Positions 2,679 to 53,437 of a stretch of DNA of 64,000 nucleotides are shown piece by piece. Source of the stretch: Clavibacter sp. VKM Ac-2873 (lineage in GTDB: Bacteria; Actinomycetota; Actinomycetes; Actinomycetales; Microbacteriaceae); NCBI RefSeq assembly GCF_015351075.1, contig NZ_JADKRS010000003.1, positions 62,001-126,000 of the forward strand, read 5' to 3'. Made by a program: the position numbers and the translations under genes. The notes beneath the pieces were generated by a model. That model made no database searches. It was not told the DNA's origin and saw only the letters and a program-made list of their open reading frames with translations. Positions within the stretch are counted from its first letter, which is position 1, and each line of letters begins with the position of its first letter.

Positions 2679-3530
2679 ATGCTCACCGAGACGGACCTGC
2701 GGCTCCCCGACGGCCGCACGCTGCACTGCTACGACACGGGACCGGGCGACGCCGCCGACCTCGTGGTCGTCTACCACCACGGCACCCCGAACGTCGGGCC
2801 GCCGCCCGCGCCGCTCGTCGAGGCGCCCGCGGGCCGCGGGATCCGGTGGGTGTCGTACGACCGGCCGGGGTACGGCGGATCCACCCGGCGCCCGGGCCGG
2901 ACCGTCGCCGACGCGGCCGCCGACGACGCGGCCGTCGCCGACGCCCTCGGGATAGACCGCTTCGCCGTGCTCGGGCACTCGAGCGGCGCGGTGCTCGCCC
3001 TGGCCGCCGCGGCCGCGCTCCCGGGGCGCGTCCTCGGCGCGCTGTGCGGGGCCGCCCTCGCGCCCGTCGATGCGGAGGGCCTCGACTGGTTCGCCGGCAT
3101 GCACGCGGGCGGCGAGCGGGAGCTGCGCGCGGCCCTCATGGGCGCGGAGGCGCTCGAGGCGGAGCTCGCCGCGTCCGAGTTCGACCCGGCGATGTTCACC
3201 GACGGCGACCTGCGCGCGCTCGAGGGCGACTGGGCGTGGCTGGACCGGGTCGCGGCGCACGGGCTGGATGCCGGGCCCGGCGGCATGGTCGACGACGACC
3301 TCGCGCTCGTCGCCGCCTGGGGCGTCGACCTCGCGGCCATCCGCGCGCCGGTGGTCCTCCTGCACGGCGACGCCGACCGCATCGCGCCCGTCGCCCACGC
3401 GCGCTGGCTCGCCGACCGCGTGCCGGGCGTCGAGCTCGTGATCCGCCCGGGCGACGGCCACATCGCGGTGCTGCACGGCGCAGCCGACGCGCTCGGGCGG
3501 CTGCGGGACCGGATCCGCGCGGCCGGCTAG
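2679..3530 (+). CDS. Alpha/beta-fold hydrolase
   Basis: 283 residues. An alpha/beta hydrolase with VVYHHGTPN (oxyanion-hole HG), the nucleophile elbow GHSSGAVLAL, an acidic residue in LLHGDADRIAP and the catalytic His in GDGHIAVLHG, so the triad Ser-Asp-His is complete. A longer upstream reading is possible, but the ATG at 2679 is preferred because the family fold begins at MLTETDLRLPDGRTL and a TACGCT box lies exactly 6 nt before it, as in other leaderless genes here. Substrate unknown. Its stop codon overlaps that of the convergent VOC gene by 4 nt. Confidence 0.9.
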   Translation: MLTETDLRLPDGRTLHCYDTGPGDAADLVVVYHHGTPNVGPPPAPLVEAPAGRGIRWVSYDRPGYGGSTRRPGRTVADAAADDAAVADALGIDRFAVLGHSSGAVLALAAAAALPGRVLGALCGAALAPVDAEGLDWFAGMHAGGERELRAALMGAEALEAELAASEFDPAMFTDGDLRALEGDWAWLDRVAAHGLDAGPGGMVDDDLALVAAWGVDLAAIRAPVVLLHGDADRIAPVAHARWLADRVPGVELVIRPGDGHIAVLHGAADALGRLRDRIRAAG

Positions 3531-4054: not shown

Positions 4055-5656
4055 TCAGTGCCCGCGCGACACCCGCCGCGGCAGGGCGAACACGAGCGCG
4101 AAGGCGGCGACCGCGAAGATCGCGCTGACGCCCATCGCCTGGGCGGACGCGTCGGTGAACGCCTGCGGCACCATCTGCGGTCCGCGGATCCCGGCGCCCG
4201 CCACGCCCGCGAAGAGCACGCTGCCGATCACCGCGATGCCGACCGCCGAGCCGACGCGCTGCACGGTGCCGATGACGCCGGATGCCGCGCCCGCCTCCGC
4301 GGGGTCGACCGTCGCGACGATGAACTGCGCGTTCGGGGCGATGAAGAGGCCGTTGCCGATGCCCGCGAGCAGCAGCGGGACGAGCAGCATCCAGCTGTTC
4401 AGGTCCGCGGCCGCCGTGTTCAGCAGCACGAGCCACAGCCAGATGAGGCCGACGCTGACGAGCGCCGTGCCGATCACGAGCACGGTGCGGCCGAGGCGGT
4501 TCGTCAGGCGGTTGCTCTGCGAGGAGCCGACGATGCTGCCGATCGCGAACGGGATCGAGACGAGGCCCGACGCGAGCGCCGAGTTGCCGAGGCCCGACTG
4601 CCACAGGATCGAGATGGTGAAGAAGATGCTCGTGAAGGCCGCGAAGTAGACCATCGCGAGGATCACGCCGCCCGTGAACGCGGCGTGCGAGAACAGGTGC
4701 GGCGGCACGAGGACGCCCTTGGAGCGCTTCGTCTGCATGACCTCCCACGCGCCGAAGAGCGCGAGGAGCACGACGCCGCCGGCGAGCGAGAGGTAGGTCC
4801 AGAGCGGCCAGCCCTGGTCCTGGCCGTCGATCAGCGGCACGAGCAGGGCCACGAGGCCGGCGCTCACGAGGAGGATGCCGACGAGGTCGACGCCCGATGC
4901 CGCGGGGGCGGCGGCCTTCGTCGGGGCGCCACCGCCCTGCGCACCCGGGCGCTGCCCGGACTGCGCGCGCACGTCGCCCGCGACCTCCTCGGCCACCTTC
5001 CGGCTCGGGAGCAGGAAGATCGCCGCGATGACGGTCGCGAGGCCGACGGGCAGGTTCACGAAGAAGACCAGGCGCCAGCCCGACTCCTCCCCCGCCGCCT
5101 GGATGATGAGGCCTCCCACGATCGGGCCGAGGGCGGAGGAGACGCCGATGACGGCGCCCATGATGGCGAACGCCTTGCCGCGCGCCTGCGGCGGGAACAG
5201 CAGCTGGATGAAGGCGGTCACCGCGGGCACGAACAGTCCGCCGGCGAGCCCCTGCACCACGCGCGCGATCACGAGCTGGAGGTCGTCCTGGGCCACGCCG
5301 CACGCGAGGCTGGCGAGCGTGAAGAGCGCGATGCCCGTCACGAACACCCACTTGTGCCCGTAGCGGTCGCCGAGTCGGCCCGCGGGGATCAGCGCGAGGC
5401 CGAACGCGAGCGCGTAGCCGGAGATGATCCAGCTCAGCGTCGACTCGGAGGCCTCGAGGCTCGTGCGGATGGTGGGCAGCGCCACGTTCACGATCGTGGT
5501 GTCGAGCAGCGCGATGAACATGCCGGCCAGCAGCACGATGAGCGCCTGCCAGGCGCGGCGCGAGACGACGGGGGCGGCGGGCCGGGCGGCGCCGGGCGTC
5601 CCGGACGCGCCGGTGCCCCCGGCCGCCGGGCGGGCGGATGCGGTGGTGTCGGACAT
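4055..5656 (-). CDS. DHA2-family MFS multidrug exporter (EmrB/QacA type)
   Basis: 533 residues, the length of 14-helix DHA2 drug:H+ antiporters. It shows the first-helix signature LDTTIVNVALPTI, motif A GRLGDRYGHKW after helix 2, and about 14 hydrophobic segments with a Gly/Pro/Ala-rich cytoplasmic loop in the middle (about residues 205-240). The ATG at 5656 is chosen over in-frame upstream starts because AAAGGA precedes it and the upstream stretch is low-complexity. It is divergent from the rhamnogalacturonan lyase; no dedicated regulator lies next to it. Substrate unknown. Confidence 0.92.
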   Translation of the reverse strand: MSDTTASARPAAGGTGASGTPGAARPAAPVVSRRAWQALIVLLAGMFIALLDTTIVNVALPTIRTSLEASESTLSWIISGYALAFGLALIPAGRLGDRYGHKWVFVTGIALFTLASLACGVAQDDLQLVIARVVQGLAGGLFVPAVTAFIQLLFPPQARGKAFAIMGAVIGVSSALGPIVGGLIIQAAGEESGWRLVFFVNLPVGLATVIAAIFLLPSRKVAEEVAGDVRAQSGQRPGAQGGGAPTKAAAPAASGVDLVGILLVSAGLVALLVPLIDGQDQGWPLWTYLSLAGGVVLLALFGAWEVMQTKRSKGVLVPPHLFSHAAFTGGVILAMVYFAAFTSIFFTISILWQSGLGNSALASGLVSIPFAIGSIVGSSQSNRLTNRLGRTVLVIGTALVSVGLIWLWLVLLNTAAADLNSWMLLVPLLLAGIGNGLFIAPNAQFIVATVDPAEAGAASGVIGTVQRVGSAVGIAVIGSVLFAGVAGAGIRGPQMVPQAFTDASAQAMGVSAIFAVAAFALVFALPRRVSRGH

Positions 5657-6059
5657 GGGGTCCTTTCGTGCCGGCGCGGGCGTCGGCGGTGGTGGTGCGA
5701 GCGGATCCGGCCGGCGAGCGCGCGAGCGGGCGACGAGGGCGCGGGACGGGAGGTCGGGCGCCTCTCGTGCGGGCGGACGGCGTGCACGGAGGAGGATCCG
5801 CGGCGGTGCGGGAGAGACGGCCGGGCGGATGCGCCCGTCGCGCCAGTCTGGCACCGGTTGACCCATGCGGCCTATCTCGATGTCCGGCCACAGCCTCCCG
5901 TCATCGGAGGGCGCCGCATCGCGCGTGTCCGCACCCGCGCCGCCGCCGCCGCGCCGCCGCGGGGGAGGGTGTCCGCGCCGGCGGACGACCGGCCCCTACC
6001 GTGGGCCCGCCGCGCCGGATCGGGCTCGCGCATCCCCTCGTCATCCACCCGGAGGCTCC
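5657..6059. promoter_or_regulatory. 403-bp divergent intergenic region between exporter and pectin lyase genes
   Basis: No credible gene. It contains a perfect inverted repeat GCCAGTCTGGC at 5842-5852, a possible operator for the exporter, next to a TTGACC box at 5859-5864. A TACCGT box at 5998-6003 could drive the lyase gene, giving a leader of roughly 50 nt. The rest is C-rich spacer. Confidence 0.4.
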
Positions 6060-8087
6060 GTGCCCGTCCCTCGCCGCCGGCTCCGCCGCGCCCTCGTCGC
6101 CGCGCTCGTGGCGGGCGCCGTCGCGGTCGCCCAGCTCCCCGCATCCGCAGCCCCGGCGGAGGCAGCCGGCGACCCCGGGGCCACGGCCGCTCCCTCGTCC
6201 GCATCCGCCACCGCGGCGTCGGGCACCGGCGCCCGCCAGATGGAGCGCCTCGACCGCGCGCCGGAGGCCACTGCGGTCCCGGGCGGCGTGCACCTCTCCT
6301 GGCGCATGCTCGGCACCGACCCCGACGCGATCGCGTTCGTCGTCGACCGCGACGGCTCGCGCATCACGCCGTCACCGCTCACCGACGCCACCGACCTGCT
6401 CGACCCCGACGGCGGGCCCGACGCGCACTACGTCGTCTCGAGCGTGCTCGACGGCGTCGAGGCGCCGGTCACCGGCTCGTTCGGCGTGCGCACCGGCCCG
6501 TACACGTCGGTGCCCCTCGACCGGCCCGCCGACGGCGTCACACCCACGGGCGAGTCGTACGGCTACAGCGCCAACGACACGAGCGTGGGCGACGCCGACG
6601 GCGACGGGCAGTACGAGCTGTTCGTCAAGTGGGACCCGAGCGACTCCAAGGACAACAGCCAGGCCGGGTACACGGGTCCCGTCCTCCTCGACGCGTACCG
6701 GCTCGACGGCACCCGCCTGTGGCGCATCGACCTCGGCCCGAACATCCGCGCCGGGGCCCACTACACGCAGTTCCAGGTCTACGACTACGACGGCGACGGC
6801 CGGGCCGAGGTCGCGATGAAGACGGCCGACGGCACGGTCGACGGCCAGGGGAACGTGCTCGGCGACGCGTCCGCCGATCACCGGAACCCCGCCGGACGCG
6901 TGCTGGAGGGTCCCGAGTCGCTCACGGTGTTCGACGGGCTCACGGGCGCCGTCATCGACAGCGTGCCGTACGACCCGCCGCGCGGCGCCATCGCGTCGTG
7001 GGGCGACACCTACGGCAACCGGGTCGACCGCTTCCTCGCCGCCACCGCCTACCTCGACGGCGAGCGCCCCAGCCTCATCGTGAGCCGCGGCTACTACGCG
7101 CGCACGGCCATCGCCGCCTACGACCTGCGCGACGGGCATCTGGTGGAGCGGTGGATCCTCGACAGCGCCACCCCGGGCAACGCGGCGGCCGCCGGCGAAG
7201 GCGACCACGCCATGGAGGTCGCGGACGTCGACGGCGACGGGCGCGACGAGATCGTGTTCGGCTCGATGACGGTCGACGACGACGGGACGCTCCTCTACTC
7301 CACCGGCCTCGGGCACGGCGACGCCCTGCACGTGGCCGACCTCGTGCCGGACGACCCGGGCTACGAGGTGTTCGCGGTGCACGAGATCATGTCCCGCTCG
7401 GGCGATCGGGCGGCGACCATGCGCGACGCCCGCACCGGCCGCATCCTCTGGAGCATCCCCGGCGACCACGACACGGGGCGCGGATCCGCGGCCGACGTCG
7501 ATCCCCGCCACCCCGGCGCGGAGGCGTGGGCGTCGGGGCTCGGGCCCGACGGGAAGGACCACCCGCAGCTCCGCTCGGCGGACGGCGACCTCATCGCGAA
7601 CCGCATGCCGGGCACGGTCTTCACGGCGTGGTGGGACGGGGATCCGCTCCGCGAGATCGTGGACGACGACTACGACGCCTCGATCGGCGCCGGCACGCCC
7701 CTCATCGCGAAGTGGGACTGGGCCACCGCGACCCAGCGCACGGTCCTCCGGGCCGACGGCGCCCTGAGCGACAACGGCACCAAGGGCGACCCGATGCTCC
7801 AGGCCGACCTGATGGGCGACTGGCGCGAGGAGCTCGTGTGGCGCAGCGCCGACTCGAGCGAGCTGCGCATCTACTCCACCACCGACCAGTCGGACATGCG
7901 GCTGCGCACGCTCATGCAGGACCCCGTCTACCGGCTGGCGGTCGCGTGGCAGAACACGGGCTACGACCAGCCGCCCGAGGCGAGCTACTTCATCGGCGCG
8001 GGGATGGGCACGCCGCCCGTGCCGCGCATCCGACTCGCGGGGCCGGACGGTGGGCCTGCGGACGCGCCTGCCGACGCGGCCGGATAG
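6060..8087 (+). CDS. Secreted rhamnogalacturonan lyase, PL11 family
   Basis: 675 residues. The N-terminus is a signal peptide: basic VPVPRRRLRRALVAAL, a hydrophobic core and cleavage around residues 28-35. The mature part begins with a fibronectin-like strand region, then an eight-bladed beta-propeller with calcium-binding Asp-rich loops (GDADGDGQYELFVKWDP, YDYDGDGRAEVAMKTADG, DVDGDGRDEIVFGSM), the hallmark of YesW/YesX-type lyases that cleave the rhamnose-galacturonate backbone of pectin by beta-elimination. GTG at 6060 follows GGAGG at 4 nt and starts directly at the signal peptide. It points to a plant-associated lifestyle. Whether it is endo- or exo-acting cannot be told. Confidence 0.92.
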   Translation: MPVPRRRLRRALVAALVAGAVAVAQLPASAAPAEAAGDPGATAAPSSASATAASGTGARQMERLDRAPEATAVPGGVHLSWRMLGTDPDAIAFVVDRDGSRITPSPLTDATDLLDPDGGPDAHYVVSSVLDGVEAPVTGSFGVRTGPYTSVPLDRPADGVTPTGESYGYSANDTSVGDADGDGQYELFVKWDPSDSKDNSQAGYTGPVLLDAYRLDGTRLWRIDLGPNIRAGAHYTQFQVYDYDGDGRAEVAMKTADGTVDGQGNVLGDASADHRNPAGRVLEGPESLTVFDGLTGAVIDSVPYDPPRGAIASWGDTYGNRVDRFLAATAYLDGERPSLIVSRGYYARTAIAAYDLRDGHLVERWILDSATPGNAAAAGEGDHAMEVADVDGDGRDEIVFGSMTVDDDGTLLYSTGLGHGDALHVADLVPDDPGYEVFAVHEIMSRSGDRAATMRDARTGRILWSIPGDHDTGRGSAADVDPRHPGAEAWASGLGPDGKDHPQLRSADGDLIANRMPGTVFTAWWDGDPLREIVDDDYDASIGAGTPLIAKWDWATATQRTVLRADGALSDNGTKGDPMLQADLMGDWREELVWRSADSSELRIYSTTDQSDMRLRTLMQDPVYRLAVAWQNTGYDQPPEASYFIGAGMGTPPVPRIRLAGPDGGPADAPADAAG

Positions 8088-8147
8088 CGTGCCCGTTCCG
8101 TCATCCGGCGGATGCGCCCGCGGCGGCCGCGTCGATACCGTGGGCGG

Positions 8148-9557
8148 ATGAGCGCCGCACCCGCACCCGACAGCGTCGACCGGTTCTGGGTGCGCCCGCG
8201 GCCCGACCGCGCCGGGCTGCGCTTCGACGTGCTCCTCGCGCTGGTGATGCTCGTGCTCACCACCGGGAGCTGCATCATCTCCTACGCGGTGGGCATCTTC
8301 CCGTCGCGGCCGCCGATGTGGGTCATCGTCGCGTGGATCCTCGTGATGAGCCTGCCGCTCGCCCTCCGCCGCCTCCAGCCGGAGGCGCTCACGCTCCTGG
8401 TGAGCGCGGTGTACATCGTCGGCGTCTACCAGCGGGTGCCCGAGACGATGTTCGCCAACATCGCCATCTTCATCGCGTTCTACTCTCTCGGCGCGTGGGG
8501 CCGGAACCGGGTGCGCGCCCGCATCGTGCGCGGGGTCATAGTGCTGGGGATGTTCGCGTGGCTCTTCGCGACCCTGCTGCAGGCCTCCGGCTTCCTCGCC
8601 ATCAGGGGATCGCGGTTCGACAACGCCCCCGCCGACGCCTGGGTGTCCGCCCCCGTCGCCGCTGGCCTCATCTCCATCATCACGAACCTCCTCTACTTCG
8701 GCGGCGCCTGGTACTTCGGCGACCGGGAATGGGCGTCGGCGCGCGACCGCTGCGCCCTCGAGACGCGCACGGCCGAGCTCGCGACCGAGCGCGAGCGGGT
8801 CGCGGAGCAGGCCGTCACGCTCGAGCGGGTGCGCATCGCCCGCGAGCTGCACGACGTCGTCGCGCATCACGTCTCCGTGATGGGCGTGCACGCGGGCGCG
8901 GCCAGGCGCGTCCTCGCGCGCGACGCCGAGAAGGCGGCGGCATCGCTCGGCATCGTGGAGGACAACGCGCGCAGCGCCATCGAGGAGCTACACCGCATGC
9001 TCATCGCGCTCCGGCAGGAGGACGACGGCGCGGGATCCGATGGCGCCGCCGACTCCGATCCGACCCGAACCGCATCCACCCGCGGCGTCGACCAGCTGCA
9101 CGAGCTCGTGGCGGATGCGCGCGGAGCCGGCCTCGCCGTCGCCTTCGACGTCATCGGCACGCCGCGGCCGCTCACGCCCACGGTCGACCTCATCGTCTAC
9201 CGGGTGGCGCAGGAGTCGCTCACGAACGTGCGGAAGCACGCGGGCACGGGCGCCCGCGTCGACCTCCGCCTCCGGTACCTGGCCGACCGCGTCGAGGTGG
9301 AGGTGAGCGACGGCGGTCCCGCGGGCGCGGCGGCGTCGGCGGCCGCGGGTGGCGTGCGGAACGGGCCCGGCGGCCTCGGCCAGCGCGGCATGCGGGAGCG
9401 CGTGGCGGCGGTGGGCGGATCCATCGAGATCGGCCCGAAGGCCCGCGGCGGCTACCTCGTGCGCGCCTCGGTGCCGACCGGGCCGACGCCGGTCGTGCCG
9501 CCCGTGCCGCTGCCCGTCCCGGTCGACGTGACCATCCCCGAGGAGACCCGCGCATGA
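8148..9557 (+). CDS. NarL-type sensor histidine kinase
   Basis: 469 residues. Five or so membrane helices occupy residues 25-190, followed by a coiled coil and the HisKA_3 dimerisation domain with the phospho-accepting H235 in ARELHDVVAHH. The HATPase domain includes YRVAQESLTNVRKHA (N box) and GPGGLGQRGMRERV (G2 box). The extracytoplasmic loops are short, suggesting a membrane-embedded or envelope-stress signal. The start is supported by TACCGT exactly 6 nt upstream (leaderless). The ATGA overlap with the response regulator downstream makes a clear two-component pair. Confidence 0.94.
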   Translation: MSAAPAPDSVDRFWVRPRPDRAGLRFDVLLALVMLVLTTGSCIISYAVGIFPSRPPMWVIVAWILVMSLPLALRRLQPEALTLLVSAVYIVGVYQRVPETMFANIAIFIAFYSLGAWGRNRVRARIVRGVIVLGMFAWLFATLLQASGFLAIRGSRFDNAPADAWVSAPVAAGLISIITNLLYFGGAWYFGDREWASARDRCALETRTAELATERERVAEQAVTLERVRIARELHDVVAHHVSVMGVHAGAARRVLARDAEKAAASLGIVEDNARSAIEELHRMLIALRQEDDGAGSDGAADSDPTRTASTRGVDQLHELVADARGAGLAVAFDVIGTPRPLTPTVDLIVYRVAQESLTNVRKHAGTGARVDLRLRYLADRVEVEVSDGGPAGAAASAAAGGVRNGPGGLGQRGMRERVAAVGGSIEIGPKARGGYLVRASVPTGPTPVVPPVPLPVPVDVTIPEETRA

Positions 9558-20935: not shown

Positions 20936-21631
20936 TCAGAGCACAGGTGCCGGACCCGAACCGCGGACCTGGATCCGCGCCTCCTCCTCCCAGTCCCGCG
21001 CCATGTCGCGATAGCGCTTCCTCTGCGCCTTGTTGAAGCCCGCACGATCTGCGAGCAGGGCGAATGCCCGCGCCACCTGGTCGGGTATCGCGGCAGGATC
21101 TCCTGCGGTCGCCTCCAGGAGGATGCGGATCACCGTTGCCGGATCTCCGCCGAACTCGATGAGCCTCACGAGCTCGCGAGCGTCCTTGGCGCCTTTCTCC
21201 GAATCAGGTCGGTCGAGCAACGCCGCCATCTTCGTGGTGATGTGCGCTTCGATGGTGAGGAGGGACCAACCGCGCAGCTTCTGATCGTCGACGTATCGCG
21301 CGAGTACCTCCACCTTCAGCAGCAGGTGGTCCCCGAGCTGGGACTCGTAGGGGAAGTAAGCGTCTATGTGGATGCCATCCGCTGTGCCTCGAGCCTTCTT
21401 TGCCCCTCCGCTGTGCCGAGAGCTCTCGCTGTAGTCCTCCAATCGATCCCGCAGGGTGACCCGTCGAGACGGGTCCTGGACGATGAGGTCGATGTCCTGG
21501 CTGATATCACCACCGACCCTCAGGTAGGTCGCCCACCCTCCGATCAGGATCGACGGGTCGAGCTCGTATCCGAGGGAGTCGACGAGGAGGTGTAGCTGCG
21601 CGGACTCGTCGGCGGAGATGTCAGGTGGCAT
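20936..21631 (-). CDS. Nucleotidyltransferase-fold toxin, MenT/AbiEii-like
   Basis: 231 residues. The N-terminal third carries the nucleotidyltransferase signature: ILIGGWATYLRVGG followed by QDIDLIVQD (GG...DxD), as in AbiEii and MenT toxins, which transfer nucleotides to tRNA acceptor ends. Further on, KVEVLARYVDDQKLRGW and a helical C-terminal half complete the fold. The start (ATG at 21631) overlaps the end of the upstream gene by 11 nt. This tight coupling behind a winged-helix gene is the layout of type IV AbiE/MenAT modules. I cannot tell the target, and a non-toxin nucleotidyltransferase is possible. Confidence 0.7.
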   Translation of the reverse strand: MPPDISADESAQLHLLVDSLGYELDPSILIGGWATYLRVGGDISQDIDLIVQDPSRRVTLRDRLEDYSESSRHSGGAKKARGTADGIHIDAYFPYESQLGDHLLLKVEVLARYVDDQKLRGWSLLTIEAHITTKMAALLDRPDSEKGAKDARELVRLIEFGGDPATVIRILLEATAGDPAAIPDQVARAFALLADRAGFNKAQRKRYRDMARDWEEEARIQVRGSGPAPVL

Positions 21632-22229
21632 CGGGAGCCTGGTCCCACTCGCGTTCCCGGAGGAACTTGTCACGGATCGCGTATCGGTATTCGGACGCAG
21701 CCCACCCTGGAGTCGCGAAGAGGTCGGCATAGGTCTGGGCTGGCGAGCTGTACCCGCCCCACGTCCGTGCTGCACGCTTGTCCATGGCGACGATCCGGAC
21801 CTCCCCGCCAGGCGGCAGCTTCGTCGCCGCGGCCACATGAGGCACGTAGAGCAGATGCTCGACGAAGTCAGCGACATGGACACCACCGAGGTGCACGTTC
21901 GCCGCGTCCGGACCGCCGAGCGCATAGGGACCAGCCGAGCTGTCCATGAGCGGTCTGGCCCCCTCGACCGTGGTCATGGCGAGGGTGTCTTGGATGAGGT
22001 TCCTCCGCGCACACAACAAGGTGAGCACCTTGTCCAGGCTCGTCACCGAGAAGCCACCGCGGGGATACTTGAGGATCGCGCCAATGAGGCTCAGGCGATC
22101 AAGGGCCAGGTTCGTCGTCGAGGCAGGCACCCCCGAGGCGAAGGCGAGATCCTCGACGCTCTTCCACCTGCGCTCCTGCAGGAGTGCAGCGTCAGCGAGA
22201 GTGCGCCAAACCAGTTCGTTGCCCTTCAT
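21621..22229 (-). CDS. Winged-helix antitoxin-like protein, MenA/AbiEi-type
   Basis: 202 residues. Residues 15-60 form a winged helix (RRWKSVEDLAFASGVPASTT, then LALDRLSLIGAILKYPRGGF), as in AbiEi antitoxins that repress their own operon. The C-terminal part (about 100-200) has no recognised fold but is conserved-looking, with VHVADFVEHLLYVPHV and RIVAMDKRAARTWGG. It precedes and overlaps the nucleotidyltransferase gene. The region upstream holds an inverted repeat that could be its operator. GC is somewhat lower than in the neighbours, consistent with horizontal gain. Confidence 0.65.
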   Translation of the reverse strand: MKGNELVWRTLADAALLQERRWKSVEDLAFASGVPASTTNLALDRLSLIGAILKYPRGGFSVTSLDKVLTLLCARRNLIQDTLAMTTVEGARPLMDSSAGPYALGGPDAANVHLGGVHVADFVEHLLYVPHVAAATKLPPGGEVRIVAMDKRAARTWGGYSSPAQTYADLFATPGWAASEYRYAIRDKFLREREWDQAPDAT

Positions 22230-49870: not shown

Positions 49871-50184
49871 GGACGTGCCTCTCGAGTCGGGACCCGCGGG
49901 CGGAGGTGGGGAGGCCACGGGTCGATGCCGACTCTAGGAACGCGCGAGGGAAGCGGCGTGCCGCCCAGATGGCGCATCCGTGAACTTGTCCGGAAGAGCA
50001 GACATCTCGCTCCGGAGCGCGCGGCCTCAGCCCATGTCGGAGCCGAGCTCGACCTCCGTGAAGATCGAGCGCCTTCAGCGGTCTAGGGCTGGATGCGGGA
50101 CGGAGGACACGACTGAATGGCGCACCTACTCCCCAACGCCGTTAGCGCGGGACTTGATACCAGCCAGTTGAACGCCACTATTCA
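49871..50184. other. Junction region: phnD promoter, epimerase 3'-end remnant, insert edge
   Basis: 314 bp without a gene. It contains a candidate phnD -10 (TAGAGT, 49931-49936), a 10-bp GACATCTCGC (50001-50010) also found at the other edge of the insert, and a fragment of an epimerase 3' end whose frame (minus strand) reads SIFTEVELGSDMG then stop (50027-50070). From about 50071 the sequence becomes poorer in GC. Confidence 0.7.
50033..50070 (+). repeat. Direct repeat copy A (38 bp, epimerase 3' end)
   Basis: Matches 52643-52680 in 37 of 38 positions (one G/C difference at position 13). On the minus strand it codes for the last residues of the epimerase, but here it is cut off from the gene. 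It is read as one edge of an insertion. Confidence 0.9.
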
Positions 50185-52587
50185 CTAGTCTCGAACGAGC
50201 TGATCCCTCCACGCGCGAGCCGACGCCTGAATTCCCTGAAGCGCTCGCAGTGCATTACCGACAGCATGGCTCATGGGACGCAAATGCCGCGAAATATTGC
50301 CCATCATTGTGAGCTGTTCTTCAACCACGTCTGCCCCAGGAAGCTCAAGGGAACGCACCAAGCCGTCCAGCGATTCGAACATGCCCCTTCTCGCACTCGC
50401 GTCCGGAGAATCACGAACGATGATTGCGGCTCGTGCAATAGCTGAATCATAATCAGCCCACACTTCTGCCAGCCTTTTTGTGGCGACTTCCACGCCTTCA
50501 ACAGGGACAGCCAGGTCGGCACCAAGTTTGGCCATCTGGGCTGCCCCCGCGTAGGTAGGCGTAGGGCGCGAAGTCGGCCTGTCAGTGAAGACCGCTCCAA
50601 GGCGGTCGAACGCGTTCTTGAAGCCCCCGGTTGCCTCCTCAAGGGCGCCCTGGCGTGCCTCTAGAGCCTCCATAACCTCAAGGAGATCGCGATCATCCTC
50701 TTGCTCGCGCGGCTTAGCTACAGCCTCGCTTCCTGACGCGTCTCGGGCATCCACAGTTGCCTTTAGACGCGTGGCAACCTCTTCCAGCAGCTGGTCATAT
50801 TCAATGGAATTGGGCACCAATCGACGAATCTCGCCAACATCCAGAAACTGCGTAGAAGCAATTTTTGACAAGACCGGATCATCGGCGGCAACAACGTCTG
50901 TCGAGCTAACGTCAACCCACACAAGGGGCAGAAGGAGGCGCGGCTCCTCCTCGCGCTGAGCTGCGGCACTGAACTGCAAAAACTCGGAGCGGCAGGCTTG
51001 GCTCTGTAGATAACGTGGCGTGACCACCGCGAGAAGGAAGGACGTGCTCTGCGTCTCATCGAGGAGACGCGCTCGCCAATCCACACCCCATTCGAGGCTG
51101 TCCCTATCTACAAAGAGCGATATCTTTCGACCAAAAAGGAAATCGTAGTACGCGACGAGATCCTTTGCGAACTGCACAATGCGTCCACGGCTGTGCTCAT
51201 CGTCGGAATGAACGTAACTCAGGAACATCGTTGCATCCGCCGCCCCCGGGGCAGACAGGCTCCCATTACTAGAGAGTTGGTCATTCATTTGAAGAGCCCT
51301 TTCGAGGTTTGAAGATTGAGCAGAAGCAGAGACGAAACCGGAATCATCAGCGAGTGCCGCGACGGGGATAGCCCAGATATTTTCGGCGAGTTGAATCGTT
51401 TCAGAGCCGGTGTAGAAGATGAATCCACGATGCAGTCCACGACTGCGGCGAAGAGCTTCCAATGATGCCGCGTCTCGAGGATGCACACTCTTAGACGCCT
51501 TAACTTCTATACCCACGACCCGGTCACTTTGATCCACGAGCACGAGATCAACTTCGAACGATGAGCCACTCGCCTGCCTCCAGAAGTACGGCTGAATCCC
51601 CAATTCGGACCATCCTGCAGCGGCGAGAACTTGATTAACTACATGGCTCTCGAGCACCGCGCCGAACGCCTCCCGATTTGCGAGCAAATCGACGCCCGCC
51701 CGATGCAACGACTCGATAGAAAATGACGTATCGACGGGGTGAATCTTAGCTCTCGCATGGCTTTGGCGAGACGGCGTTGTGGCTAAATTGGGCAGCCAGT
51801 GCACCAGGAACAAACGCTCGAACACACCCAGGTAGCGATCCACAGTGCGCCTATCCACATCGAGCCGCGCGGATATACGGCTGGCATTGAAAATTGCACC
51901 GGGCGAACGGAGAAGGTCGTCGAGAGCAGAATGCGCCGAGAATGCGTCGATACCTATGCCCGGCAACAAAGTATCGCCGAGGACCGCCTGAACATCGGAG
52001 CGAATCTGCTCGAAAGACTGTCGTTGCGTCCGAATCCGTCTAGGAAGAACCTGCCCCGGAAAGCCACCTACACGCATGATGGAGAGAAGATCACTGTCGT
52101 CTTGCGCGCCAAAGCGTCGCATAATGACGTCGCTGTCGAACATATGGTCGACAATAGAGCCGGCAAGGCCCGCGATTTCCCACTGAGTAAGCGGGTACAT
52201 GACGAATCGGCGCGACCGCCGCGTGAGCGGATCGGCTCCACCCAGACCCGTCCGCCCGATGGAGGCGGAACCGGTAAGCACAAAGTGCGTCTCGGGGAGG
52301 AGGCCGTCCACTACCTCCTTGAGCAAGAGCGGGAGATCCGGAAGCAACTGAGCCTCGTCAATGATCGCAGGACGCGGCAAACGTTCAAGCCAGGACTTCT
52401 GGTCAGATTTAGCGAGTGCGAGCGTAGCCGGGTCGGCAAGGGAGGCATAGGAGTAGCCGGCACTCTCCAATCGGTTTCTGACCAGCGTTGTCTTCCCGAC
52501 CGCCCTAGCCCCCTCCAGGATGAGCACAGGCACTCCGCTGGCGCTAAGGAGCCGGTCACCGAGAGGCCGTCGCAGGATAGATGTCAT
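50185..52587 (-). CDS. AAA+ ATPase - DUF4143 - TIR domain fusion, candidate anti-phage defence protein
   Basis: 800 residues from ATG 52587, which has TATAGT 7 nt upstream; a TTG 21 nt earlier is less likely. Domains: AAA+ ATPase at about 12-170 (Walker A EGARAVGKTTLV near 26-34, Walker B AIIDEAQ at 74-80, sensor LTGSAS at 104-109); DUF4143 region at about 190-400 ending in a PD-(D/E)XK-like core (FEVDLV at 344-349 and EVK at 361-363); TIR domain at about 454-610 (MFLSYVHSDD, SLFVDRDSLEWGVDW, and the probable catalytic Glu 535 in CRSEFLQF); then a helical tail. TIR domains in bacterial defence cleave or cyclise NAD+. Low GC and codon use unlike the neighbours indicate transfer. The domain order is unfamiliar to me. 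Confidence 0.85.
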   Translation of the reverse strand: MTSILRRPLGDRLLSASGVPVLILEGARAVGKTTLVRNRLESAGYSYASLADPATLALAKSDQKSWLERLPRPAIIDEAQLLPDLPLLLKEVVDGLLPETHFVLTGSASIGRTGLGGADPLTRRSRRFVMYPLTQWEIAGLAGSIVDHMFDSDVIMRRFGAQDDSDLLSIMRVGGFPGQVLPRRIRTQRQSFEQIRSDVQAVLGDTLLPGIGIDAFSAHSALDDLLRSPGAIFNASRISARLDVDRRTVDRYLGVFERLFLVHWLPNLATTPSRQSHARAKIHPVDTSFSIESLHRAGVDLLANREAFGAVLESHVVNQVLAAAGWSELGIQPYFWRQASGSSFEVDLVLVDQSDRVVGIEVKASKSVHPRDAASLEALRRSRGLHRGFIFYTGSETIQLAENIWAIPVAALADDSGFVSASAQSSNLERALQMNDQLSSNGSLSAPGAADATMFLSYVHSDDEHSRGRIVQFAKDLVAYYDFLFGRKISLFVDRDSLEWGVDWRARLLDETQSTSFLLAVVTPRYLQSQACRSEFLQFSAAAQREEEPRLLLPLVWVDVSSTDVVAADDPVLSKIASTQFLDVGEIRRLVPNSIEYDQLLEEVATRLKATVDARDASGSEAVAKPREQEDDRDLLEVMEALEARQGALEEATGGFKNAFDRLGAVFTDRPTSRPTPTYAGAAQMAKLGADLAVPVEGVEVATKRLAEVWADYDSAIARAAIIVRDSPDASARRGMFESLDGLVRSLELPGADVVEEQLTMMGNISRHLRPMSHAVGNALRALQGIQASARAWRDQLVRD

Positions 52588-52633
52588 GCGAGGAACTATA
52601 CACGGCAAGTGCTACGAATTGGACATCTCGCGA

Positions 52634-53437
52634 TCATCTTGTCATGTCGGAGCCCAGCTCGACCTCCGTGAAGATCGAGCCGAGCCGGACGCCCGCGGGC
52701 GGCGACATGTCCGCGCCGAGCTCCGGGAAGCGGTGCGCGAAGACCTCGGCGTCGTCCTCGGGGTGGTACCCGATGGCCTCGCCCGCCGCGAGCGACACCC
52801 AGCGGCGGGTGTTCCGGGAGACGCCCCAGACGATCCGGTGGCCGGGCTCGTCCCACCGCAGCACGGCCTCCACGAGCCGCGCCGCGTCGCCCGAGGAGAG
52901 CCAGGTCGAGATGCTGCGGGCCTGCGACGGCTCGGGCTCGTGCGTCATGATCCGCGCGCTCACCACGACGTGCCCGTGCCGGTCGGCGTAGAGGCTGCCG
53001 AGGCCCTCCAGCAGCACCTTGCTCAGGCCGTAGAAGGTGTCGGGCCGGGGCGCGGGGACGTCCTCGCGCGCCGCATCGGTCGCGGGGAGGAAGCCGACGG
53101 CGTGGATGGAGCTGGCCGCGAGGATCCGCGGCACCCCCGCCCGCACGACCGCCTCGTGCACCGCGTGCGCGCCGTCGTTGTTCACCCGCTGGATCGCCTC
53201 CCACGGCCGCTCGGCCGCGTGCGCCGCGAGGTGCACCACGAGATCGGACCCGCGGAACGCCTCCGCGCACGCGTCGCCGTCGGTCGTGTCGACGATCCGG
53301 GAGGTCTCCCCCGGCGCGAGCGGCGTCGGCGGCGCCACCACGTCGAGCAGCCGGAGCTCGTGCCCGGCGGCGAGGAGCAGGGGGCGGATGCTCGTGGCGA
53401 TGCGCCCGGATCCTCCCGTGATCGTGATCGTGGCCAT
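52634..53437 (-). CDS. NAD-dependent epimerase/dehydratase, uronate-dehydrogenase-like
   Basis: 267 residues. Rossmann loop ITGGSGRIATSIRPLLLAAG at the start, ASSIHAVGF (Ser) and FYGLSKVLLEGLGSLYADRH with Tyr-x3-Lys. The latter motif and the later TWLSSGDAARLVEA resemble uronate dehydrogenases that oxidise galacturonate or glucuronate to the lactone. It follows the GH31 gene by 85 nt in a sugar operon, which suits pectin or xyloglucan sugars. Its last residues (SDMTR) come from the inserted repeat copy; the displaced original end reads SDMG. Confidence 0.85.
   Translation of the reverse strand: MATITITGGSGRIATSIRPLLLAAGHELRLLDVVAPPTPLAPGETSRIVDTTDGDACAEAFRGSDLVVHLAAHAAERPWEAIQRVNNDGAHAVHEAVVRAGVPRILAASSIHAVGFLPATDAAREDVPAPRPDTFYGLSKVLLEGLGSLYADRHGHVVVSARIMTHEPEPSQARSISTWLSSGDAARLVEAVLRWDEPGHRIVWGVSRNTRRWVSLAAGEAIGYHPEDDAEVFAHRFPELGADMSPPAGVRLGSIFTEVELGSDMTR
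52643..52680 (+). repeat. Direct repeat copy B (38 bp, in-frame epimerase 3' end)
   Basis: The partner of 50033-50070. This copy is the functional C-terminal coding end of the epimerase, followed by four new bases that give residues TR and a stop. The 10-bp GACATCTCGC is again found just outside (52622-52631). Confidence 0.9.

Follow-up and report, generated by a model that had tools for sequence, protein, structure and literature searches.

A single-gene insertion in Clavibacter encodes a TIR-armed relative of the defence candidate PDC-S01

What is the role of a large reading frame of low guanine-plus-cytosine (GC) content that stands alone at the 3' end of a conserved metabolic gene? The frame in question lies in Clavibacter sp. 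VKM Ac-2873, in a stretch of 64,000 nucleotides (contig NZ_JADKRS010000003.1, positions 62,001 to 126,000; hereafter the window), and encodes an AAA_14 ATPase, a DUF4143 segment and a TIR domain in one protein. A sequence-only reading had proposed it as a new defence system. In our judgement, the balance of probability tips slightly towards a one-chain abortive-infection protein that works like a TIR-NLR receptor with its parts reordered, and that constitutes a TIR-armed variant of the candidate family PDC-S01. Alignments and a predicted model show that one conserved chain combines an ATPase with PD-(D/E)XK-type and TIR sites, the key residues of all three being kept, and comparison with sister genomes shows a precise solo insertion.

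The gene (Table 1) is an intact minus-strand frame, as had been read from the sequence. It starts with an ATG at 52587 and stops at 50185-50187; from an in-frame TTG at 52608, upstream of this ATG, the product would have 807 residues. It is single-copy in its 3.3-Mb genome. Three Pfam families matched the protein above their curated cut-offs: AAA_14 at residues 20-138 (E 7.8e-17), DUF4143 at residues 225-365 (E 1.1e-23) and TIR_2 at residues 482-558 (E 1.7e-7). The tail, about residues 616-800, is helical in the predicted model, in line with the sequence-only reading, which had also named the Walker A/B ATPase, the E-x-D...E-x-K core and a TIR domain with a plausible catalytic glutamate. Its description of a new defence system has to be divided: the TIR arm is new, but residues 3-414 match PADLOC model PDLC04790 (E 7.9e-80), that is, the published candidate PDC-S01. 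The protein resembles PDC-S01 in this profile match over its AAA-DUF4143 half and in being encoded by a single gene; it differs in that the seven PADLOC models it hits range from 375 to 452 positions in length and a TIR domain and a tail of ~185 residues are added here. The NCBIfam model FxsC_Nterm also aligned with residues 454-612 at E 4.5e-12, yet below the family cut-off. A PHROGs search with the protein gave no match, and a promoter and terminator scan found none.

Conservation was read from an alignment of eleven of the 16 intact proteins with the full domain order, namely the window's protein and ten named relatives that are 31-62% identical to it (L002, L003, L052, L058 and L059 were left out). 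AAA_14, DUF4143 and TIR_2 were each matched by all eleven (Pfam, E up to 0.1), which rules out that the TIR match is too weak to trust, and nSTAND3 was also matched by two (best E 1.4e-4). Invariant in all eleven are G26, G31 and K32 of Walker A (around G26-K32), D77 and E78 of Walker B, the nuclease core E345-x-D347...E361-x-K363 at each of its four named residues, and S529, C532 and E535 of the TIR domain. The same holds for an LTGS stretch and for G174, G175 and P177, which may correspond to the STAND-specific GxP-type motif. When solved structures were searched by profile, the TIR domain aligned with a flax rust resistance TIR (7vu8) and with AT1G72930 (3jrn), and E535 fell on the glutamate of their S-x-W-C-x-x-E stretch, the catalytic residue of these TIRs. 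Two sets of matches to the tail were not accepted: that to TCAD9 (E 0.0074) occurred in one of the eleven proteins only, and those to viral spike, adhesin and chemoreceptor chains were taken as coiled-coil-type chance.

In the predicted model, ATPase and TIR folds are both present. The N-terminus resembles STAND ATPases and plant NLR cores, and the downstream part is nearest to plant and SPARTA TIRs; structural matches barely cover residues 301-449 and 615-800. Alignment and model together show a P-loop carrying both Walker motifs and, after it, a winged helix, a combination not unique to STAND proteins. In the model the ATPase looks STAND/NLR-like, more than like the generic AAA+ ATPase of the sequence-only reading.

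Is this domain order peculiar to the window? Matches to the protein occurred in 28 of the 149 genomes of the relatives group (its own included) and in none of the 17 other genomes of the genus. They were found in 128/396 genomes of the order with residues 1-452 as query, in 134/396 genomes of the phylum with a query alignment, and at 27 loci of the GTDB contig collection when searched with an alignment; in an earlier scan of these contigs with the single protein, 0/8 pattern hits were confirmed. When matches were placed in open frames, the AAA-DUF4143-TIR order was found in 16 intact proteins (Table 1), so a chance fusion or frameshift artefact is ruled out. This count covers fetched loci placed in frames; long frames of the order search without a fetched locus stand outside it. 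At two further loci, L122 4935-7393 (Propionibacterium acidifaciens) and L125 4941-6966 (Actinomyces dentalis), the match is spread over two overlapping frames, by decay or sequencing error. Among 59 IMG/VR pattern hits, none was confirmed.

We then considered how the TIR arm is distributed over the family. Of the 90 usable rows, 40 entered a tree of the AAA-DUF4143 half: each of the 16 TIR-fused proteins, the top-scoring TIR-less ones and a few chosen others. On this tree the TIR label needs six changes, at least four of them forced by well-supported branches, and 0/500 label shuffles were as good as the observed arrangement. The main clade of 28 rows contains 14 with and 14 without TIR. Five TIR-less sequences from metagenome-assembled genomes (MAGs; L110-L114), whose AAA-DUF4143 half shares 53-58% identity with that of the window protein, were placed close to the Microbacteriaceae proteins with a TIR, at a fork of weak support. 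Individual placements are uncertain owing to long branches (L003, L058, L103, L124), and gains of the TIR are indistinguishable from losses. TIR and tail also occur together without the ATPase half, in L004 1456-2622, L015 814-2079 and L090 1402-2679, which align over both parts. Judged from these sequence comparisons, the TIR arm is modular. The same three stand-alone proteins also show weak matches to a TIR-retron family. At another locus (L043), three AAA-DUF4143 genes or pieces are clustered (1209-1787, 4539-6929 and 7143-8414), the middle one TIR-fused and repeat-flanked.

How did the gene come to lie in Clavibacter? It stands between two copies of a 38-nt, att-like direct repeat, whose sequence is the 3' end of a nicotinamide adenine dinucleotide (NAD)-dependent epimerase family gene. 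All 17 further genomes searched within the genus carry the epimerase gene, and every one of their DNA matches breaks off at exactly 52643. Eight of them (L022, L023, L025, L027, L028, L029, L034 and L036) have the uninterrupted site, as an unbroken stretch that aligns to about 48.53-50.07 kb plus 52.643-53.49 kb of the window. Because these two parts overlap in the repeat, 2,610 bp were gained and 38 bp of the epimerase 3' end were duplicated. The remaining nine have the repeat and a different downstream neighbour. In the window, the last codons and the stop of the epimerase gene are replaced by insert-derived ones, and the other frames of at least 70 residues listed between the repeats all overlap the TIR gene, with no second separate gene. 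GC is 0.58 in the repeat-bounded unit, against 0.71 and 0.77 in the 1-kb flanks and mostly 0.70-0.79 in the window. Patchy presence, foreign GC and precise insertion support acquisition of the unit by horizontal transfer, as the sequence-only reading had argued from the low GC and the position at a metabolic gene end, the repeat having escaped it. In sister genome G016 (L041), an unrelated stretch of ~1.2 kb (GC 0.52-0.61, other frames) lies at exactly the same epimerase gene end; no direct repeat was found there.

There is no integrase gene between the repeats. Only two Phage_integrase-family genes were found in the genome, both outside the element; by reading, they adjoin ParA-like and DprA-like frames, as the XerD and XerC genes do. 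Any dedicated site-specific enzyme of that family therefore acted in trans or has gone. By analogy with restriction-modification (R-M) systems (PMC3874152; here and below, PMC numbers refer to the excerpted text of each source), homologous or illegitimate insertion with target duplication would be an equally open route. R-M units likewise move without a known mobile element, with target duplications of around 100 bp (PMC3874152); here, in contrast, there is one gene, no methyltransferase match, and a duplicated stretch that is a gene's 3' end. Recombinase-like inverted arms in seven of the repeats (those of the window and of other loci) were not beyond shuffles, 14/200 being as good for the window's copy and 28 to 175/200 for the others.

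To measure flanking repeats, the 600 nt on each side of a frame were compared and the best ungapped repeat was taken as the score. A first try with 20 loci gave three outliers, and the cut of 30 was set after seeing a score gap between 18 and 31. At this cut, repeats of 38-194 nt flank 10 of 114 distinct AAA-DUF4143 genes, among them 3 of the 16 TIR-fused loci (L001, L003 and L107). Re-fetched copies, five duplicate genes, six genes with short flanks, the fragments L057, L122 and L125 and the three TIR-only proteins had been excluded. Random intervals gave 0/2123, with a maximum of 20 (drawn, with overlap, from the window and 28 loci). Control genes gave 0/26 for Fic, 2/23 for HipA and 0/28 for Mrr (4/30, 7/30 and 2/30 having been excluded for short flanks or frames), or 2/77 pooled (one-sided p = 0.07 against AAA-DUF4143). 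At a cut of 20, the random intervals gave 2/2123 and the controls one, three and none, or 4/77 pooled (p = 0.26). At two loci the repeats may be of other origin, L107 having antitoxin-like frames on both sides and the repeat of L071 lying in coding-looking DNA; without them the count is 8/112 (p = 0.15). We had expected flanking repeats to be a mark specific to AAA-DUF4143 genes, which was not borne out. Since other accessory genes are also repeat-flanked, we claim a route that small modules share, without specificity for this family. The window's insert is the only one for which an empty site was demonstrated. One of the HipA cases lies elsewhere in the same genome (L206, contig G000:C8 near 40.6 kb): a HipA-helix-turn-helix (HTH), HipBA-like module between copies of an 82-nt direct repeat with one mismatch (425-506 and 2332-2413), which is the 3' end of a 220-residue pentapeptide-repeat gene, the same kind of insertion as the window's.

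Does the protein defend against phages? PDC-S01 is described as the fourth most common defence candidate across prokaryotes, single-gene and unvalidated (PMC12988326), and is also frequent in rumen genomes (PMC13356809). An archaeal "AAA+ superfamily ATPase fused to HTH and RecB nuclease domains" is entered in a table as "likely involved in defense (or some plasmid gene)" (PMC4158269), and we infer that this entry is the same family as AAA-DUF4143. TIR NADases act in phage defence (PMC12847820, PMC11156904). From this background, together with the patchy, foreign-looking insertion, we infer a defence function for the TIR-armed protein. The TIR arm on PDC-S01 is new here: in the open-licence literature, we found no paper on it, none joining DUF4143 with a TIR domain and none joining FxsC with a TIR domain, while one was listed for DUF4143 with AAA, and the DefensePredictor paper (PMC13092281) has 0 occurrences of TIR and 0 of DUF4143 in its main text.

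Which known system does it resemble most? The plant TIR-NLRs RPP1, WRR4A and Roq1 share with it an NLR-like ATPase with a winged helix and a closely similar TIR. In plant TIR-NLRs the TIR is N-terminal. Here it is C-terminal and separated from the ATPase by a PD-(D/E)XK-type domain, and no LRR was found. SPARTA (short Ago with TIR-APAZ) has a TIR that matches structurally in the model; here, however, the insert holds no second gene and so no Ago partner, and the putative sensor is the ATPase of the same chain. SpbK of Bacillus subtilis is a TIR NADase defence protein acting by abortive infection, for which the excerpted text mentions no ATPase or nuclease-like domain (PMC12847820).

A one-chain abortive-infection protein of this kind might work as follows. 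The ATPase would be a STAND-type switch. A phage trigger, perhaps a nucleic acid or a phage protein, would be sensed through the winged helix and the nuclease-like domain, leading to nucleotide exchange and oligomerisation. The C-terminal TIR domains would thereby be brought together and hydrolyse NAD+, and the cell would stop growing or die before phages are released. The nuclease-like domain may also cleave DNA. The unit itself would have arrived by horizontal transfer, entering the conserved gene's 3' end without wrecking the gene.

Several observations weigh against this proposal. None of the 23 Pfam families matched by any of the eleven proteins is an LRR, TPR or WD sensor repeat, and we therefore liken the protein to an NLR and do not file it as one. 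Foldseek also ranks RuvB, ORC and DnaA for the model, so that the ATPase may be of STAND type or another winged-helix AAA+ protein. The model was built on 11 sequences only and has a predicted template-modelling score (pTM) of 0.55, so the overall domain arrangement cannot be read from it. Most AAA-DUF4143 relatives placed in frames have no TIR, which means that the TIR is not the whole story for the family. No defence-island context was seen on reading the window's neighbours. Among plasmids, 182 records match, none over at least 80% of the query; among phages, there is one partial record at 23.5% identity and no full-length match.

Part of this evidence could be read differently. The PD-(D/E)XK domain might be the effector of a DNA-cutting defence ATPase, with the TIR as scaffold or secondary brake. 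The nuclease core and the TIR site are indeed equally invariant, and the nearest relatives of AAA-DUF4143 type do their job, whatever that is, without a TIR. The invariance of E535, S529 and C532 is, however, unlike a decayed scaffold, and stand-alone TIR-tail proteins exist; we consider this account unlikely. It is less likely still, in our view, that the gene is a selfish or addictive module whose AAA-nuclease works for its own spread or retention (it could, for example, open the breaks into which the unit inserts), with defence incidental. Such a module would fit the direct repeats around 8-10 of the 114 AAA-DUF4143 genes, the similar insertion of the HipA-HTH module and the long target duplications with which some R-M systems insert (PMC3874152), but the repeats around other accessory genes (2/77 and 4/77 at the two cuts) mean that the nuclease is not needed, and the TIR arm has no evident use in mobility.

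Two further accounts place the TIR outside one-chain abortive infection. A stress or developmental regulator using TIR NAD turnover would agree with the FxsC-type TIR similarity, seen in all eleven proteins (for the window's, below the cut-off), and with the discussion of actinobacterial FxSxx-type peptide systems alongside TIR and AP-ATPase proteins, though there as conflict systems (PMC7159879). Patchy presence, foreign GC and precise insertion speak against such a non-defence role, which seems to us quite improbable. Least probable of all is a Thoeris-like scheme, in which the TIR makes cyclic ADP-ribose that is read by a separate effector elsewhere: weak Thoeris type III ThcB4 matches occur in 8/11 proteins (best E 6.4e-6), yet there is no adjacent ThsA-type effector or other partner gene in the insert, and none was seen by eye around ten relatives.

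Should the TIR-NLR-like proposal hold, it would connect an abundant prokaryotic family with plant immune receptors through a common ATPase-plus-TIR logic, in another domain order. More speculatively, and with clearly less confidence, PDC-S01 may be a family of NLR-like STAND receptors in which the nuclease-like domain is the sensor or first effector, a TIR death arm has repeatedly been added, and members can spread as integrase-less one-gene islets into the 3' ends of conserved genes and tRNAs. A natural TIR-armed PDC-S01 would offer a measurable output, NAD+ loss, that could reveal the trigger and switch of a very common unvalidated family. The repeat-bounded one-gene unit also gives a tangible example, open to checking, of how a putative defence gene moved while carrying no mobility gene.

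Table 1. Features of the insert and its gene (window coordinates), full-order proteins, and other repeat-flanked loci (locus coordinates)
Feature	Position	Strand	Remarks
AAA_14 - DUF4143 - TIR gene, 800 residues	50185..52587	-	intact frame, Pfam, alignment
P-loop ATPase, residues 1-165	52093..52587	-	Walker A about 52486-52512; STAND/NLR-like in model
Winged helix and PD-(D/E)XK-type domain (DUF4143), residues 166-415	51343..52092	-	Pfam DUF4143; invariant core
Linker, probably flexible, residues 416-450	51238..51342	-	predicted local distance difference test (pLDDT) <50 for 421-448; poorly conserved
TIR domain, residues 451-615	50743..51237	-	E535 codon 50983-50985
Helical tail, residues 616-800	50188..50742	-	predicted model; also in stand-alone TIR proteins
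Left copy, 38-nt direct repeat	50033..50070		one mismatch to right copy
Right copy, 38-nt direct repeat	52643..52680		within 3' end of epimerase gene
Insert with both repeat copies	50033..52680		2648 bp; 2610 bp gained
Target gene, NAD-dependent epimerase family	52634..53437	-	Pfam Epimerase E 1.8e-16
Full-order proteins, window's taxonomic order			window's own, L002, L003, L052, L058, L059
Full-order proteins			L105 Microbacteriaceae VKM Ac-2855; L106 Subtercola vilae; L107 Actinomycetes MAG
Full-order proteins			L108 Agreia sp. PsM10; L109 Rathayibacter iranicus; L115 and L117 Arachnia propionica
Full-order proteins			L118 Eggerthellaceae MAG; L121 Chloroflexi MAG; L123 Olsenella MAG
L001, flanking repeat			38 nt, epimerase gene 3' end
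L103, flanking repeat	1359-1552 and 2936-3129		194 nt, thiolase gene 3' end; AAA-DUF4143 gene between
L096, flanking repeat			38 nt, mechanosensitive channel gene 3' end
L062, flanking repeat			perhaps a gene 3' end
L139, flanking repeat	1073-1119 and 2897-2943		intact tRNA-Val and second copy of its 3' 47 nt; AAA-DUF4143 gene between
L003, flanking repeat			full-length relative, 39% identity; 67-74 nt, copies 2,607 bp apart; no gene end identified
L011 and L137, flanking repeats			no gene end identified
L092, weaker flanking repeat			30 nt, under the cut; cytochrome c family gene 3' end

Elsewhere in the window, a second dip in GC was seen at 21001-22000, where the value is 0.648 against a background mostly above 0.70.
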